NCBI RefSeq assembly: GCF_014191605.1 | Contig: NZ_JACHWU010000001.1 | Location: 1,674,001-1,738,000 of the forward strand | Origin: Prauserella isguenensis | Lineage (GTDB): Bacteria; Actinomycetota; Actinomycetes; Mycobacteriales; Pseudonocardiaceae | DNA length: 64,000 nt | Direction of reading: 5' to 3' | The notes under the pieces: model-generated | Database searches by the model: none | What the model was told of the DNA's origin: nothing | What the model saw: only the letters and a program-made list of their open reading frames with translations | Shown here: positions 27,763-35,120 of the stretch, one piece after another | How positions within the stretch are numbered: position 1 is the stretch's first letter | Layout: every line of letters starts with the position of its first letter | Position numbers and translations under genes: made by a program

Positions 27763-28491
27763 TCAGACGGGTTCGGCGATGACGACCCGGTTCTCCTCGT
27801 ACCCGGTCGTCCCTCCCTGCCACCTGCCTCCGCAGGTGACCAGCACGGCGCGATGTCTGCCGCTCTGCCCGAACAGTTCGCGTGCGCGCGCGGGCACGTC
27901 GTCCTTGTGCAGCGTCAGGATGCGCGAGACCTCGTAACGGAACTTCTCCCCGCCGTCGTCCGAGACGACGACGCGGTCACCGACCCGCACCTGCCACAGC
28001 TCCGAGAACGGACCTTCCCTGCCCTGCCAGTTGACGTGCCCCGCGAAGACGCTCGCGCCGCTCGGGGCGCCCAGGCCGGCGCCCCACCACGTGGCCTCGC
28101 CGAGATTCTCGGGCACGGGCAGCACCGCGTCGGGACCGAGGTCGTGACGGACCAGTGTGGCCGAGCCGCCGTCCGGCAACCGGACCGTGCCGGGCCGTTG
28201 GCCGCTCGGCGCCGGCGTCACCTCCGGTTCGGTACGGCGGTCCGGTTCCCCGTTCGGGACCGGTTCGTCACGGGACGTCTCCTGTTCATCCGGTTCGTCC
28301 GATGTGGTCGGCTCCGGTTGCTCCGCTCCGGCGGACTGCCCGCGGACGACCTGCCGTTCGTCCGCCGGCTCCGCGGTACCGGCGACGGCGTCGGTGGGCG
28401 GCATCAGCACCGCCGCACCCACCAACGCCTGTGCCACCAGTACCGAGGCCGCGCCCAGCAGATAGGCACCGGCCCGGTCGCGCCTCGCCAT
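27763..28491 (-). CDS. class F sortase
   Basis: Membrane-anchored transpeptidase of 242 residues. One N-terminal hydrophobic segment (AYLLGAASVLVAQALVGAAVLM) is followed by a Glu/Pro/Thr-rich linker to about residue 100. The catalytic core has FAGHVNW (His), AVLVTCGG (Cys) and YEENRVV (Arg) in sortase order. The gene begins one base after the stop of the thioester-domain surface protein gene upstream, so the two are almost certainly one operon and that protein is the likely substrate. Confidence 0.92.
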   Translation of the reverse strand: MARRDRAGAYLLGAASVLVAQALVGAAVLMPPTDAVAGTAEPADERQVVRGQSAGAEQPEPTTSDEPDEQETSRDEPVPNGEPDRRTEPEVTPAPSGQRPGTVRLPDGGSATLVRHDLGPDAVLPVPENLGEATWWGAGLGAPSGASVFAGHVNWQGREGPFSELWQVRVGDRVVVSDDGGEKFRYEVSRILTLHKDDVPARARELFGQSGRHRAVLVTCGGRWQGGTTGYEENRVVIAEPV

Positions 28492-28492
28492 G

Positions 28493-30013
28493 TCAGTTCC
28501 CGGACAGCTGCCGGCGACGCGCGAGGAACCCGCCCGCGGCGGCCACCGCGACCGCGAGGCCGCCCAGGCCGATCAGTGCGCCCGTCGGTGTCGCCGTCGT
28601 GGTGGGACTCTGTGCCATCGGCTGCCCCTGCTCACCGGCGGGGATCACGGTCGGGACCTGATCCGCCTCGTTGCTGATCGTCAGCTCGAGCGTCCCGCCC
28701 GGTTGCACCTTCCCGCACGCTGACGGCGGATCGTCCGGATCGAACGCATCGGTGTAACCGTTCGGCGGGCTGACCTCGATCACGCAGATCCGCTGCGGTG
28801 CGCGCAGTCCGTCGACCGTGGCCACGCCGCCGGCGCCTTCGGTGGTGACGACGGCGGGCTTGCCGTCCTCGCCGACCAGCGGTTCGCCGTCGTCGCCCTT
28901 GGCGGCCGACTCCTTGTCGCCCGCGGTGACGCGCAACGGCACACCCGCGATGCCCTTCTCCGACTCGGCGTCGATCTTGGTGACCTTCACGCCGCCCGGT
29001 GCGTTCCTCGCCGTGCCGGTCGCCGAGGCCGTCAGTTCCTGTTCCCCGCCTGTCGACACCACGCGCTGGGTGTCGGCCGTGACCGGACTCTGGACGTACG
29101 GACGGGCGGCGGGGGCCGACATCGTGGCCGTCACCGACGGCTGCTCCGCCGTCGGCGTGACCCGGAACGTGGCGGTGCCGTCGTCACCGGTCGTCACGCT
29201 CGCCCGCTCACCGCCGACCCGGGCGCCCTCGGCGGACAGTGTCACCGGCACGCCGGGCACGCCCTTGCCCGCGGCGTTGGTCACCGATACGGACCACTCG
29301 CCGTCCTCGCCGATGGTCTGTTCCTGCTCCGGAGCCGTGACGTCGGCCTTCCACGGGCCGCGGTTGGCTTCGGCGTCGGCACGGAGCCGCTCCACCGCGT
29401 CCTTCGCGCCCTGCGGCAGCTTCGCGAACTGTCCCTCGACGTTGTAGGCGATCTGGTCGAACGGCAGGTCCCTGTCGAGATCCGCGGGCGTGCGCGGGGC
29501 GGCCGTCCACGAGTGCAGCAGGTGGGCCAGTGCGGCCGCCTCGTCGTCGCTCTGCGTGTCGCCGTAGCGCAGCAGCAGGTACGAGATGTTGGCGGCGGTG
29601 TCCTCCGGAATCTTCTCGCCCCATTTTGTGAGCAGCTCGTCACCGGGCTGGTACTGCTCGTCGGAGTCGGGTGCCTTCAGTGCGAACTGCACACAGAACA
29701 CCTGCTTGCCGCCGACGAGGTAGGAGCCGTGCCAGTCGCGCTCGCGGTCCTGGCCGCCGTAGGGCTGGCCCGGCGTGGTTTCGTGTCCGTTGCCCTCCTG
29801 CACTTCGGCCGAGGCCGCGGGGGCGACGACGACCAGCGAGAACGTGGCGAGTGCGAGGGCTACGAGGAGTCGCAGGGCGAGGGCGCCGCGCCGGACGAGC
29901 CCGGAACGCGGCACGGTCGACGGGCGCGGCACGGTCGACGAGTGCCCGGTGGCGGCGGAGCTCTGCGTGCGGGCAGAGCTCCGGTTGCGGGAAAGGCGCA
30001 GGGTAGGCGCCAC
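28493..30013 (-). CDS. surface protein with Cys-Gln thioester domain and Ig-like/SpaA-like repeats
   Basis: 506 residues from GTG 30013, which has GGGGGA five bases upstream; the frame further upstream is not coding-like. A long basic N-region and LLVALALATFSLVVVAPAASA form the signal peptide. The first domain (about residues 75-230) has YLVGGKQVFCVQF and, later, DQIAYNVEG, the Cys and (T/D)QxA Gln of a thioester (TED) adhesin domain able to bond covalently to host or environmental targets. Two Ig-like domains and a SpaA/Cna-B-like domain (GGVKVTKIDAESEKGIAGVPLRV, CVIEVSPPNGY) follow. The C terminus is a sorting-type tail: helix GALIGLGGLAVAVAAAGGFLA plus RRRQ, but only a poor LPxTG match (ATPTG). 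The 350-bp region upstream (30014-30362) has no gene. Confidence 0.88.
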   Translation of the reverse strand: MAPTLRLSRNRSSARTQSSAATGHSSTVPRPSTVPRSGLVRRGALALRLLVALALATFSLVVVAPAASAEVQEGNGHETTPGQPYGGQDRERDWHGSYLVGGKQVFCVQFALKAPDSDEQYQPGDELLTKWGEKIPEDTAANISYLLLRYGDTQSDDEAAALAHLLHSWTAAPRTPADLDRDLPFDQIAYNVEGQFAKLPQGAKDAVERLRADAEANRGPWKADVTAPEQEQTIGEDGEWSVSVTNAAGKGVPGVPVTLSAEGARVGGERASVTTGDDGTATFRVTPTAEQPSVTATMSAPAARPYVQSPVTADTQRVVSTGGEQELTASATGTARNAPGGVKVTKIDAESEKGIAGVPLRVTAGDKESAAKGDDGEPLVGEDGKPAVVTTEGAGGVATVDGLRAPQRICVIEVSPPNGYTDAFDPDDPPSACGKVQPGGTLELTISNEADQVPTVIPAGEQGQPMAQSPTTTATPTGALIGLGGLAVAVAAAGGFLARRRQLSGN

Positions 30014-31337: not shown

Positions 31338-32369
31338 TCAGATCATGCGCTTGGCGCCGGAGAACTCGTCGTCGGTGTCCCACTCCTGCCAGTCGACGAT
31401 CGACACCGACTCGGAGGCGTTGGGCGCGTGGATCATCCGGCCGTCGCCGACGTACATGCCCACGTGGTGCACGCTGCCGACGCCGCCGGGCTCGGCGAAG
31501 AACAACAGGTCACCGGGCTGCAGATCCTCGACGGCGACGTCCTGGCCGTACGCGGCCTGCGCCGACGAGTCCCGCGGGATCGACACGCCGTGGGCCCGGT
31601 GGACGCTGTAGGTGAAGCCCGAGCAATCGAACCCGTACGCGGACACGCCCGCCCACAGGTAGCGCAGGCCCAGGAACTGCTTCCCGGTGGCGACCAGGTC
31701 GTCACCGGCCGGCGCGGCGGGCTGCTCGCCCTGGCCGTACACGTCGACCGCGTCCTGTTCGAGCCACGCGTGCGAGCCGTCCGGCAGGGCGACCCGCACC
31801 GCAGTCGGCGTCTCGGCGAGTACCGGCAGCCGTGTGTTGAAGCTGATCTCCGACAGCGGCTGCGCGCCGGTGGGGGTGCCCGTCAGCCATGTCTTGTCGT
31901 CGGTCACCTGCGCCCACGGACGGGTGTCGGTCAGGGTGTCGAACCGGTCGCCTGCGACGAGCTGGTCGACGGGCATCCAGCCGGGGTAGCCGCGGTCGTC
32001 GCGCGGGGTGTCCTGTCCCTCGACCACGACGTGGGCCCAGTCTCCGTCGACCTCGGTGACCTCGACCTCGGAACCGAGCACGGCCTGCGTCTCGAGCTTG
32101 CCGGTGAGCCAGCGCCGTGTCTCGGTGTCGGCCAGGTTCCGGTTCCACTGGTCCAGGTCGACCGGGTTGGTCAGCGACGGTGCGTCGACCGGCCGGTCCA
32201 GCCCCGGCTCGACCCACAGGGTCGCGGTGGTCACGTCGACGAAGGCGTGGTCACCCGCTTCGATGCCGTGTCCCTGTGCGGCCTCGTGCGGCGCGGCCGC
32301 CGCGGTGCCGGCGCTCGCGCCGACCAGCCCCGCGGCCAGCAGCGCGACCGTCGTTCTGCGGAGGTTCAT
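31338..32369 (-). CDS. exported NlpC/P60 endopeptidase with SH3-like domains (YkfC-like)
   Basis: 343 residues. ATG 32369 has GGAG seven bases upstream and overlaps the epimerase stop (ATGA). Residues 1-25 are a Sec signal ending AAAAAP. Two SH3-like regions (about 35-125 and 125-210; VTTATLWVEPGLDRP, YPGWMPVDQLV) resemble those of Bacillus YkfC. The catalytic domain has AYGFDCSGFTYSVHRAHG (Cys), LQPGDLLFFAEP and VHHVGMYVGDGRMIHAP (His). Predicted to cut the gamma-D-Glu-diaminopimelate bond of peptidoglycan peptides. As last gene of a permease-epimerase-hydrolase operon it likely supplies or consumes the dipeptide used by the epimerase. Confidence 0.91.
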   Translation of the reverse strand: MNLRRTTVALLAAGLVGASAGTAAAAPHEAAQGHGIEAGDHAFVDVTTATLWVEPGLDRPVDAPSLTNPVDLDQWNRNLADTETRRWLTGKLETQAVLGSEVEVTEVDGDWAHVVVEGQDTPRDDRGYPGWMPVDQLVAGDRFDTLTDTRPWAQVTDDKTWLTGTPTGAQPLSEISFNTRLPVLAETPTAVRVALPDGSHAWLEQDAVDVYGQGEQPAAPAGDDLVATGKQFLGLRYLWAGVSAYGFDCSGFTYSVHRAHGVSIPRDSSAQAAYGQDVAVEDLQPGDLLFFAEPGGVGSVHHVGMYVGDGRMIHAPNASESVSIVDWQEWDTDDEFSGAKRMI

Positions 32370-33460
32370 TCCTGTTCTCCTTTCACCCATGGAGCGAAAC
32401 CGATTCCCGGACCGGGATGGAGATGCATCTCGCTGCCGCGCAGGGTGTAACCACCGCTGAGGTCGGGGTCGTCGATCCACTCGGCCGAGTCGAGGTCGAC
32501 GAGGGTGACCGCGGGATGGGCGGCTGCGAGGTGGGCGGCCGCAGCGATGGAGATCCTCGGCTCCATCATCGCGCCGACCATGCATTCGATTCCGGCTGCG
32601 CGCGCGATGTCGGCGATGGCGAGTGCCTCGTCCATCCCGCCGCACTTGGCCAGCTTGATGTTGAGCATGTCGGCGGCCCGCCGCTGCACGATCTCCAGCG
32701 CGCTGTGCGGCGAGGACACCGATTCGTCCGCCATGACCGGGACGTCGACCGCGGCCGTCACCGCGGCCATGCCCGCCAGGTCGTGGTCGGCGACAGGCTG
32801 TTCGACCAGCTCGAGGGGGATCCCGGCATCCTCGATGGCCCTGATCACGCGGATTGCCGCCTTCACGTCCCAGCCCTGGTTGGCGTCGAGGCGGAACCGC
32901 ACGTCCGGCGCGGCGTCCCGGACCGCGCGGAGCCGCTCCAAGTCGGCGCGCCAGTCGTTGCCGAGCTTGATCTTCAGCACGTCGAAGCCGTCTCCGACCG
33001 CTTCGACGGCAGCGTCGGCCATGCGCTGCGGTGTGTCGAGGCTGACCGTCATGTCGGTGCGCAGCACCGTGGCGGTGTCCCCGCCGAGGGCCTCGGCCAG
33101 CGGCACGCCGAGCGTCCGGGCCCAGGCGTCGTGCAACGCCATGTCGGCCGCTGCCTTGGCTGCGAAGTTCCCGACGCAGGAGCCGGCGATGCCCGCCGCG
33201 ACCTCACGCCGTCCGGTGTCGGCCCGTTCGGTCAGGGCCTGTTTCACCGGCCCGTTCAACACCGCCAGTACCGAATCGACGGACTCGCCCGTGACGCCGA
33301 AGGACTGCCCCGCCGAGCCGTGGCCGACGGTGCCGTCGGCCAGCTCGAGCTCGACGAGCACTCCCAGCATCGTGTCGACACGTCGACGTGCCGTGATGAA
33401 CGGGCGCGCCAGCGGCGCCGAATAGCGCCGCGCCCGCAGGTCCGTGACAGCGGGCAGCAC
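32366..33460 (-). CDS. L-Ala-D/L-Glu (dipeptide) epimerase, enolase superfamily
   Basis: 364 residues. Predicted to convert L-Ala-D-Glu from cell-wall turnover to L-Ala-L-Glu so it can enter metabolism. The capping domain is followed by the barrel with the catalytic lysine motif FDVLKIKLG (about residue 160), metal ligands in FRLDANQGW, LELVEQPV and VMADESV, and the opposite-face lysine in LNIKLAKCGG; MVGAMMEPRISIAA is the typical late motif of dipeptide epimerases. Start is GTG, one base after the DUF819 stop; its own stop overlaps the NlpC/P60 start. Other substrate specificities exist in the superfamily, but the context supports this one. Confidence 0.9.
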   Translation of the reverse strand: MLPAVTDLRARRYSAPLARPFITARRRVDTMLGVLVELELADGTVGHGSAGQSFGVTGESVDSVLAVLNGPVKQALTERADTGRREVAAGIAGSCVGNFAAKAAADMALHDAWARTLGVPLAEALGGDTATVLRTDMTVSLDTPQRMADAAVEAVGDGFDVLKIKLGNDWRADLERLRAVRDAAPDVRFRLDANQGWDVKAAIRVIRAIEDAGIPLELVEQPVADHDLAGMAAVTAAVDVPVMADESVSSPHSALEIVQRRAADMLNIKLAKCGGMDEALAIADIARAAGIECMVGAMMEPRISIAAAAHLAAAHPAVTLVDLDSAEWIDDPDLSGGYTLRGSEMHLHPGPGIGFAPWVKGEQE

Positions 33461-33461
33461 C

Positions 33462-34607
33462 TCAGATCACCCCCAGCACGTTCACCGTCGCCAGGCCGAC
33501 GAACGTGCCCGAGAACGCGCCGATCAGAGCGAAGAGCACACCCACCGGGACCATCTGCCGGTGGAAGGCACTGGCCACGACCGGCGCGGAGGCCATGCCG
33601 CCGAGGTTGGCCGTGCTGGCCACCGCCAGGCTCGCCAGTTCGGACTTCGTCAGCTTGGCGTAGACGACCATGACGGTCGCGTGCACGATCAGTGCGATCA
33701 CGCCGATCAGCAGGTACAGCGGCGCCTCGGCCAGCGACGAGAAGTCGGACCCGGAGGCGATGATGCCGATGATCACGTACAGCATCACCATCGCGAGCTC
33801 GGAGGAGCCGGCCGTCCTGCCGAGCCGGGTCGAGGCGATGACGAGGCCGAGCACGCTGACGATGAGGATCGTCCAGGTGGTGCCGGTGACGACGTCGCCG
33901 AGCTCCGGCAGCAGACCGCCGACCCAGGTCGCGAGGGCGGATACGAGCAGGCTGAAGCCGATCAACGTCATCAGCGACGTCAGGTCGATCGACCGTTCCT
34001 GCTCGTCGGCCGCGTGCCCGTCGAAGTCGATCGCCTTCGCCTTGGTCCACTGGTTGAACCGGTCGGCGACGCCGACGGAACTGAACATCACCAGCAGCCA
34101 CAGTGAGTAGAGCACCGTGTCGACGATGAGCACATAGCCGATCAGCGTCTCCGGTGCATCCACAATGGACTGTACGGCGACCAGGTTCGCGGAACCACCG
34201 GTCCACGACGCGGCGAGCGCACCGAGCGCCTTGTAGGCCTCACCTTCCAGTGTCGCCTGGAAGATCAGGAACGCGACGACGAAGCCGATGGCGATGCTGA
34301 GCGCCGAGACGACGAACGTCAGCAGCAGCCTGGGGCCGAGCTTGATGATCTTGCGGATGTCGCATTTGAACAGCAGGAGCAGGATCATCGCCGGCAGCAG
34401 TGCGTCCTTCACCGCGTCGCCGGTCGCGTCCACGGAGTCGGAATCACCGAACACGCCCAGGGTGTTCAGCAGTGCCGCTCCGAGGTAGAGGAGCACGAAT
34501 CCGGGTACGTACTTGAGGAACCGGTACTGCCGGCGCTGCGTGACGTAGACGATGGCCGCTGCCAGTCCCAGCAGCACACCGAGATAGAGGAATCCGTCGG
34601 TAATCAT
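33462..34607 (-). CDS. DUF819 family multi-pass membrane protein, probable permease
   Basis: 381 residues with ten or more hydrophobic segments. It matches DUF819 (YjcL-like) by LLPAMILLLLFKCDIRKI, AALAASWTGGSANLVAVQ and, near the end, LASLAVASTANLGGMASAPVVASAFHR, an inverted-repeat transporter-like layout with GGSAN and GGMASAP motifs in the two halves. It is first in the operon with the epimerase and NlpC/P60 hydrolase, so I infer uptake (or export) of cell-wall di- or tripeptides; the family has no established substrate. Confidence 0.85.
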   Translation of the reverse strand: MITDGFLYLGVLLGLAAAIVYVTQRRQYRFLKYVPGFVLLYLGAALLNTLGVFGDSDSVDATGDAVKDALLPAMILLLLFKCDIRKIIKLGPRLLLTFVVSALSIAIGFVVAFLIFQATLEGEAYKALGALAASWTGGSANLVAVQSIVDAPETLIGYVLIVDTVLYSLWLLVMFSSVGVADRFNQWTKAKAIDFDGHAADEQERSIDLTSLMTLIGFSLLVSALATWVGGLLPELGDVVTGTTWTILIVSVLGLVIASTRLGRTAGSSELAMVMLYVIIGIIASGSDFSSLAEAPLYLLIGVIALIVHATVMVVYAKLTKSELASLAVASTANLGGMASAPVVASAFHRQMVPVGVLFALIGAFSGTFVGLATVNVLGVI

Positions 34608-34642
34608 GTTCGCGTCGCCGCCGTCCTTTCTTCCTCACAACG

Positions 34643-34696
34643 CAAAAAAGTCGGAAACGCGCACCGACCGCTCGGGTCGTGTGCGTGTTTCCGACT
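34643..34696 (-). terminator. long hairpin with T-run between DUF3870 and DUF819 genes
   Basis: On the minus strand a stem of about 21 bp (outer AGTCGGAAAC with GTTTCCGACT) with one bulge is followed by six T. This is a textbook intrinsic terminator for the upstream DUF3870 gene, and also could attenuate transcription into the DUF819 operon, whose ATG is 36 bases further on. Confidence 0.8.
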
Positions 34697-34745
34697 GGGT
34701 CCGGCCCGGTGAGGGGCCAGGCAATCGCTGGGTGCTACGGAGACG

Positions 34746-35120
34746 TCAGCCCGCGGCGAGTCCGACCGCGCTGCGATACTTGGTCGCGGCGTGGTGCAGA
34801 GCCGCTATCAGGGCCCGCTGTGACGAGCCGTGATAGCGCGCGGCGATGCGCTCCGTGAGCAGATCTTCCTCCGTGATGCACTCTCGAACGAACAAGCCTT
34901 TGACGAACCTGTTCGTCAGGGCCAACGTCGCCGAGCACTCGGCATCAAGGATTCGGTGGGTGTCCGGATCGATCTCGAAGGCGATGAAGAACAGCCCGTA
35001 CTGGCTGGTGATCGGGTTGTTCGAGGGTGCTTTGGCCTCGCCCGTGACGAAGACCGATGTGGACATGGCGAGACAGTAGGACAGGCCCACCTTCTCTCGG
35101 TAGTCCTCGTCGTCGCTCAC
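34746..35120 (-). CDS. DUF3870 domain protein
   Basis: 124 residues, matching DUF3870 by VFVTGEAKAPSNNPI, LFFIAFEIDPDTHRILDAECSATLALTNRFVKGLFV and a C-terminal RYHGSSQRALIAALHHAATKYR. The family has no known function; its members often occur near metabolic or sensor genes. It precedes the DUF819-epimerase-NlpC operon on the same strand but is cut off from it by a strong terminator. The 188 bases upstream (35121-35308) hold no other gene. Confidence 0.8.
   Translation of the reverse strand: MSDDEDYREKVGLSYCLAMSTSVFVTGEAKAPSNNPITSQYGLFFIAFEIDPDTHRILDAECSATLALTNRFVKGLFVRECITEEDLLTERIAARYHGSSQRALIAALHHAATKYRSAVGLAAG

Follow-up and report, generated by a model that had tools for sequence, protein, structure and literature searches.

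We analysed a 64,000-nucleotide stretch of the Prauserella isguenensis genome (contig NZ_JACHWU010000001.1, positions 1,674,001 to 1,738,000; hereafter the window), in which three adjoining genes encode a DUF819 membrane protein, a dipeptide epimerase and an exported NlpC/P60 hydrolase. With a probability of roughly 70%, we propose that this operon is a catabolic unit for murein dipeptides, with cutting outside the cell, import of L-Ala-gamma-D-Glu by DUF819 and epimerization inside. The proposal is favoured by the gene identities, the conservation of active sites, the predicted secretion of the hydrolase, the fold class of DUF819 and a recurrent, clade-specific gene linkage; from these we infer what is transported, in which direction and with which coupling ion, as well as the activities of the enzymes encoded here. 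In the proposed pathway, the exported YkfC-type endopeptidase would act outside the membrane on cell-wall stem peptides with a free N-terminal L-Ala, cutting the bond that joins gamma-D-Glu to the diamino acid. The L-Ala-gamma-D-Glu released there would be imported by DUF819 and turned into L-Ala-L-Glu by the cytosolic epimerase of the YkfB type. A dipeptidase would then split L-Ala-L-Glu; PepV lies beside DUF819 in many Clostridia, and in Prauserella such an enzyme is presumably encoded elsewhere in the genome. The features of the unit are:

31338..32369, minus strand: predicted exported SH3-SH3-NlpC/P60 gamma-D-Glu-diamino acid endopeptidase, YkfC type (best PDB match 3h41; signal peptide)
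32366..33460, minus strand: predicted cytosolic L-Ala-D/L-Glu dipeptide epimerase, YkfB type (MR_MLE_C and MR_MLE_N Pfam domains; best PDB match 1jpm/1tkk)
33462..34607, minus strand: DUF819 membrane protein, 381 aa (PF05684, 345 bits against a gathering score of 27)
34643..34696, minus strand: terminator-like hairpin with a U6 tail (fold energy)
34687..34730, minus strand: conserved leader element (alignment of 12 loci)
34746..35066, minus strand: DUF3870 small protein (PF12986, 109 bits)

The coupling of the three genes noted in the first-pass annotation is borne out by the ORF coordinates. The TGA stop of DUF819 ends at 33462, 33461 is a single free base and the epimerase starts with GTG at 33460, while the TGA of the epimerase (32368-32366) shares bases with the ATG of the hydrolase (32369-32367) in an ATGA overlap. 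That annotation did not describe DUF3870 or the leader and terminator hairpin that separate it from DUF819. DUF3870 is the fourth gene of the unit and belongs to the conserved gene set; the order DUF3870-DUF819-epimerase-YkfC is repeated in Prauserella, Nocardiopsis and, exactly as in the window, a clostridial genome (L150).

Identity of the enzymes and fold of the carrier

The hydrolase, composed of SH3_16, SH3_YKFC_2nd and NLPC_P60 domains, aligns along its entire mature sequence with YkfC of B. cereus (3h41; E 1e-92, 48.8% identity). The residues around bound L-Ala-gamma-D-Glu and the catalytic site of that protein have been listed (PMC2954226), and all 15 are identical in the window: E83, T84, Y118, Y226, W228, A229, D237, C238, S239, R255, D256, S257, H290, H291 and H303. 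The features of the YkfC subfamily are thereby present, namely Asp256 and the SH3b residue Tyr118 (for the free N-terminal L-Ala), Cys238/His291/His303 and two SH3b domains. By sequence, the identity of the hydrolase as a YkfC-type gamma-D-Glu-diamino acid endopeptidase is firm, and it would be expected to have the corresponding activity. The signal peptide reported earlier was also found, a classical one at the N-terminus (MNLRRTTVALLAAGLVGASAGTAAAAP); export signals here and below were judged by eye and hydropathy, without a dedicated signal-peptide predictor.

For the epimerase, the best PDB match was the B. subtilis L-Ala-D/L-Glu epimerase (1jpm/1tkk; E 9e-84, 43.5% identity). It keeps the equivalents of K162 and K268, D191, E219 and D244, R24 and D321-x-D323, which in the 1tkk structure we take to be the catalytic lysine pair, the metal ligands, Arg24 and the D-x-D that holds the ammonium group. 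The NCBIfam equivalog cut-offs, set for narrow groups, were missed (NF041118, 217 against 500 bits; NF011708, 130 against 343), so the assignment is limited to YkfB type by residues, and we strongly infer Ala-Glu activity from the residues rather than from equivalog membership. All DUF819-linked epimerases collected in the survey described below have the same dipeptide-binding residues, with the equivalents of R24, K162, K268 and D321-L-D323 kept in 66-67 of 67. The likeness to the Bacillus Ykf proteins drawn in the first-pass annotation is thus favoured by the active sites of YkfB and YkfC; the part that took ykfD for the transporter needs qualifying, as this B. subtilis gene codes for an ABC ATPase subunit and not a whole transporter.

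A PDB sequence search with DUF819 gave no relatives, and an AF2 model was built from 52 relatives (pLDDT 84.9). Foldseek matched this model best to the sodium/citrate symporter CitS (E 3e-6, TM up to 0.70), followed by AspT (E 2e-3) and Na+/H+ antiporters. The model has the inverted-repeat fold and the two re-entrant GG loops of the CPA/AT re-entrant elevator carriers; the GG motifs (SWTGGSAN at 134-141 and STANLGGMASAP at 331-342) are invariant in the window's clade. Because the CitS match agrees with the published placement of DUF819 in the re-entrant CPA/AT group (PMC8396727), we model the protein as an elevator-type, CitS-like carrier, a fold that by itself does not give the substrate. CitS and AspT are carriers of acidic substrates, which we count in favour of dipeptide import. 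W135 and H309, each present in 25/25 rows of the window's clade but in only 2/17 rows of other clades, are candidates for specificity.

DUF819 neighbourhoods and alternative explanations

A survey of DUF819-epimerase neighbours in other genomes had been suggested beforehand as a check. A single scan across 84,980 species genomes yielded 80 DUF819 relatives, and adding other collected loci brought the window's clade to 84 loci (one genome, L035/L142, counted twice); because similarity to the window was the basis for choosing the loci, the counts are not family-wide rates. Within 4 kb of DUF819 in these 84 loci, we detected an Ala-Glu-type epimerase in 66, a PepV-type dipeptidase in 28, DUF3870 in 26, a transglutaminase-like protein in 22 and YkfC in 12, with at least one peptide enzyme in 78. 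On a tree dereplicated at 75% identity, an epimerase was present within 6 kb for 16 of the 25 rows of the window's clade and for 0/17 rows of other clades, and the epimerase labels clustered equally tightly in just 1-3 of 500 shuffles. Chance adjacency was rejected for a linkage that is clade-specific and recurs in several phyla with partner genes downstream, upstream or divergent; epimerase linkage as a property of all DUF819 was rejected on the count outside the clade. The importer role suggested in the first-pass annotation is therefore favoured by linkage for the window's clade and not for the whole Pfam family.

The clusters vary in content. Many hold only DUF819 and the epimerase, with or without PepV, most clostridial clusters are without YkfC, and M20 peptidases adjoin several members of the window's clade that have no epimerase. 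Woeseiaceae (L059) show the order Amidase_2-DUF819-NlpC/P60-epimerase, and Wallbacteria (L063) have DUF819-NlpC/P60-epimerase. In Streptomyces diacarni and S. reniochalinae (L031/L032), YkfC and the epimerase are convergent with DUF3870-DUF819 and score ~230-265 bits against the window proteins, compared with 480-740 for those of Prauserella and Nocardiopsis. Because gene order and strand vary, and because these Streptomyces enzymes are low-scoring and convergent, the linkage probably arose more than once, by independent recruitment. We also noted that no epimerase, YkfC or DUF3870 lies within 8 kb of DUF819 in S. xiaopingdaonensis and S. sulphureus (L029/L030). An unexported transglutaminase-like protein (PF01841), possibly a cytosolic murein-peptide hydrolase, lies between DUF819 and PepV or the epimerase in clusters of the Lachnospiraceae type (L076 9342-10724, L102 1334-2767 and 20 further loci). 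A recurrent neighbour, both in DUF819-type and in ABC-type epimerase/YkfC clusters, is a serine hydrolase that resembles class A beta-lactamases (L083 9202-9990, L020 6184-6969, L031 11528-12436 and L195 8958-9761).

A separate search for YkfC relatives, made without regard to DUF819, covered 378 genomes from the phylum of an even clostridial draw. The four strong relatives (L195, L196, L197 and L199) lie in operons with an epimerase and Dpp/Opp-type oligopeptide ABC genes (an ATPase with oligo_HPY, and an SBP_bac_5 protein), without DUF819; an S66 LD-carboxypeptidase was present in L195, L196 and L197, where scanned. The YkfC proteins of these operons start directly in the first SH3 domain and have no signal peptide. 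In contrast, the NlpC/P60 proteins adjacent to DUF819 in Prauserella, Nocardiopsis, Streptomyces, L150, Woeseiaceae and Wallbacteria all carry an export signal; Fusobacterium (L020) has a distinct membrane-anchored protein. This contrast, together with the signal peptide in the window, favours the outside cutting proposed in the first-pass annotation, and the pattern would suggest that peptides cut outside are paired with a DUF819 carrier and peptides cut inside with an ABC peptide importer. The rule is not strict, because B. cereus pairs a secreted YkfC with an oppA gene. Given the clade-specific linkage to epimerase and dipeptidase and the export signals of DUF819-linked NlpC/P60 proteins as opposed to the signal-less YkfC of ABC operons, DUF819 of this clade most likely imports L-Ala-gamma-D-Glu.

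Several points weigh against this assignment. The open papers searched hold no transport data for any DUF819 protein. B. cereus has a secreted YkfC and an OppA-type gene, so DUF819 is not required (PMC2954226). The 80 database loci were similarity-chosen. Among 348 evenly drawn clostridial genomes, 21 have a credible DUF819, but just three of these proteins belong to the window's clade, including the one at the centre of the draw; an epimerase adjoins two of the three, one of them L150, and an M20 peptidase the third. The DUF819 of S. xiaopingdaonensis and S. sulphureus is 72% identical and has no epimerase nearby, and the unexported transglutaminase-like protein of Lachnospiraceae clusters could mean that larger peptides enter there. 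This last arrangement, together with another DUF819 lineage that adjoins an M15 D-Ala-D-Ala dipeptidase, would also fit a carrier for a different wall fragment (the intact tri- or tetrapeptide, diaminopimelate or D-Ala), with L-Ala-D-Glu entering by another peptide carrier. We consider this unlikely, as the clusters of DUF819 and epimerase, with or without PepV, leave the dipeptide as the common factor, and operons with an unexported YkfC employ ABC carriers instead.

The match to AspT raises the question of whether DUF819 instead serves the pathway by exchange or export, for example by taking in dipeptide against alanine or glutamate. This seems improbable given the far better match to the symporter CitS and a gene set that gives no hint of end-product export. 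We give very little credence to a third explanation, in which other dipeptides are the substrates of DUF819 and the epimerase, and the proximity of YkfC is secondary. The dipeptide epimerase superfamily does include members with other specificities, and YkfC is missing from most clostridial clusters; however, the Ala-Glu-type residues are uniform across the linked epimerases and the ligand pocket of the window YkfC matches that of B. cereus YkfC residue for residue. Import of L-Ala-gamma-D-Glu is the explanation that we retain. In open papers on DUF819, DUF3870, COG5505 and YjcL (most subscription papers and bioRxiv lay outside the search), we found no transport assignment, and DUF819 as an importer of this dipeptide appears to be new among them.

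Leader element, DUF3870 and distribution of DUF819

The 44-base leader between DUF3870 and DUF819 (CGAUUGCCUG...GA(C/U)CCAGUCG) is conserved in Prauserella, Nocardiopsis and two Streptomyces and is confined to their DUF819 operons. In the 12-locus alignment, an outer stem (CGAUUG/CAGUCG) encloses an inner hairpin of genus-varying sequence, with GGCCC/GGGCC replaced by GUUCC/GGAAC between genera. The 3´ arm of the leader stem has AGUCG in common with the 5´ arm of the terminator. Because the leader arm is thus the start of the terminator hairpin, the two structures are predicted to be mutually exclusive and to compete. The region 34625-34720, which contains the terminator, folds at -50.1 kcal/mol (z -5.1). 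In structure prediction the leader folds alone and the terminator, when included, prevails. The two Streptomyces with convergent enzymes (L031/L032) retain the leader element and have no terminator. Across 396 genomes the leader is single-copy in its own genome (68 bits, against at most 27 for other matches); no match of comparable score was found in the 395 other Actinomycetota genomes and none in viral contigs, and a wide occurrence of the element is unsupported. An Rfam search with the leader gave weak chance matches only and no known family. The element might act as an attenuator or riboswitch; alternatively, it may be no more than a DUF3870 terminator beside an operator. DUF3870 itself is a recurrent neighbour of DUF819/epimerase clusters across several phyla. 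It is modelled as a beta3-alpha3 protein, for which Foldseek found nothing significant, the best hit being a weak likeness to muconate-lactonizing enzymes (E 0.01).

The 4.95 Mb host genome is actinobacterial, and the closest database records for the window are from Prauserella species (P. salsuginis DUF819, 97%). DUF819 is rare in this phylum, with any match in 7 of 296 Actinomycetota genomes and, in the organism's family, 4 of 100, all of the same genus. The nearest tree rows beyond the actinobacterial group are clostridial, and a horizontal gain of DUF819 from Bacillota is likely. Outside the window's clade, an M19 membrane-dipeptidase-family protein adjoins DUF819 in 5 loci (the divergent L151 included), an M15 D-Ala-D-Ala dipeptidase in L147 and an S9 peptidase in Xanthomonas (L021). 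GNAT-type proteins of ~340-390 aa adjoin a separate clade in 7 loci (L152, L153, L155, L156, L158, L159 and L160). The recurrence of unrelated dipeptidases beside different clades suggests dipeptides as the theme of DUF819, with no obvious fit for the GNAT clade. As a tentative extension, which we put at somewhat below even odds, the family might consist of ion-driven importers whose substrates are small dipeptides, mainly from the cell wall, with a different cytosolic partner enzyme for every clade (Ala-Glu epimerase/PepV, M19 or M15 D-Ala-D-Ala dipeptidase). In this view a leader RNA in competition with a terminator would switch the Actinomycetota unit of the window, and the GNAT-paired clade is left unexplained. 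Elsewhere in the window (27763-29899, minus strand), a class F-like sortase domain protein adjoins a surface protein that contains SpaA and Ig-like domains.

Comparison with known systems

The recurrence of similar DUF819-enzyme combinations in very distant bacteria makes the role of DUF819 testable, and would permit clade-based annotation of the family in gut Clostridia, Fusobacterium and Actinomycetota. In B. subtilis ykfABCD and dppBCDE, as in the window, a YkfB epimerase and a YkfC endopeptidase are adjacent and belong to the same pathway. Unlike the window operon, which has no ABC or LD-carboxypeptidase gene and an exported YkfC, the B. subtilis unit has a YkfC without a signal peptide, the LD-carboxypeptidase YkfA, ABC transporter genes and no DUF819. 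The murein-peptide permease of B. subtilis has been described as unidentified (PMC2954226). The B. cereus ykfB-ykfC pair (BCE_2879-2878) is closer in having a secreted YkfC and a cytosolic YkfB, and outside cutting with import of L-Ala-gamma-D-Glu was proposed for it in 2010; it differs in adjoining an oppA-type gene, with no DUF819 mentioned in the described context (PMC2954226). The prp locus of N. meningitidis pairs DUF819 with a peptidase of M15, the family to which D-Ala-D-Ala dipeptidases belong, with no epimerase or YkfC mentioned (PMC12671195). CitS (2HCT) and AspT of the CPA/AT superfamily resemble the predicted DUF819 fold at ~15% identity and carry citrate or aspartate/alanine, not peptides. 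Collectively, these comparisons set apart two designs of one pathway, cutting outside and importing the dipeptide or importing the peptide and cutting inside, and yield a precise prediction for the former, a CitS-like carrier for L-Ala-gamma-D-Glu.
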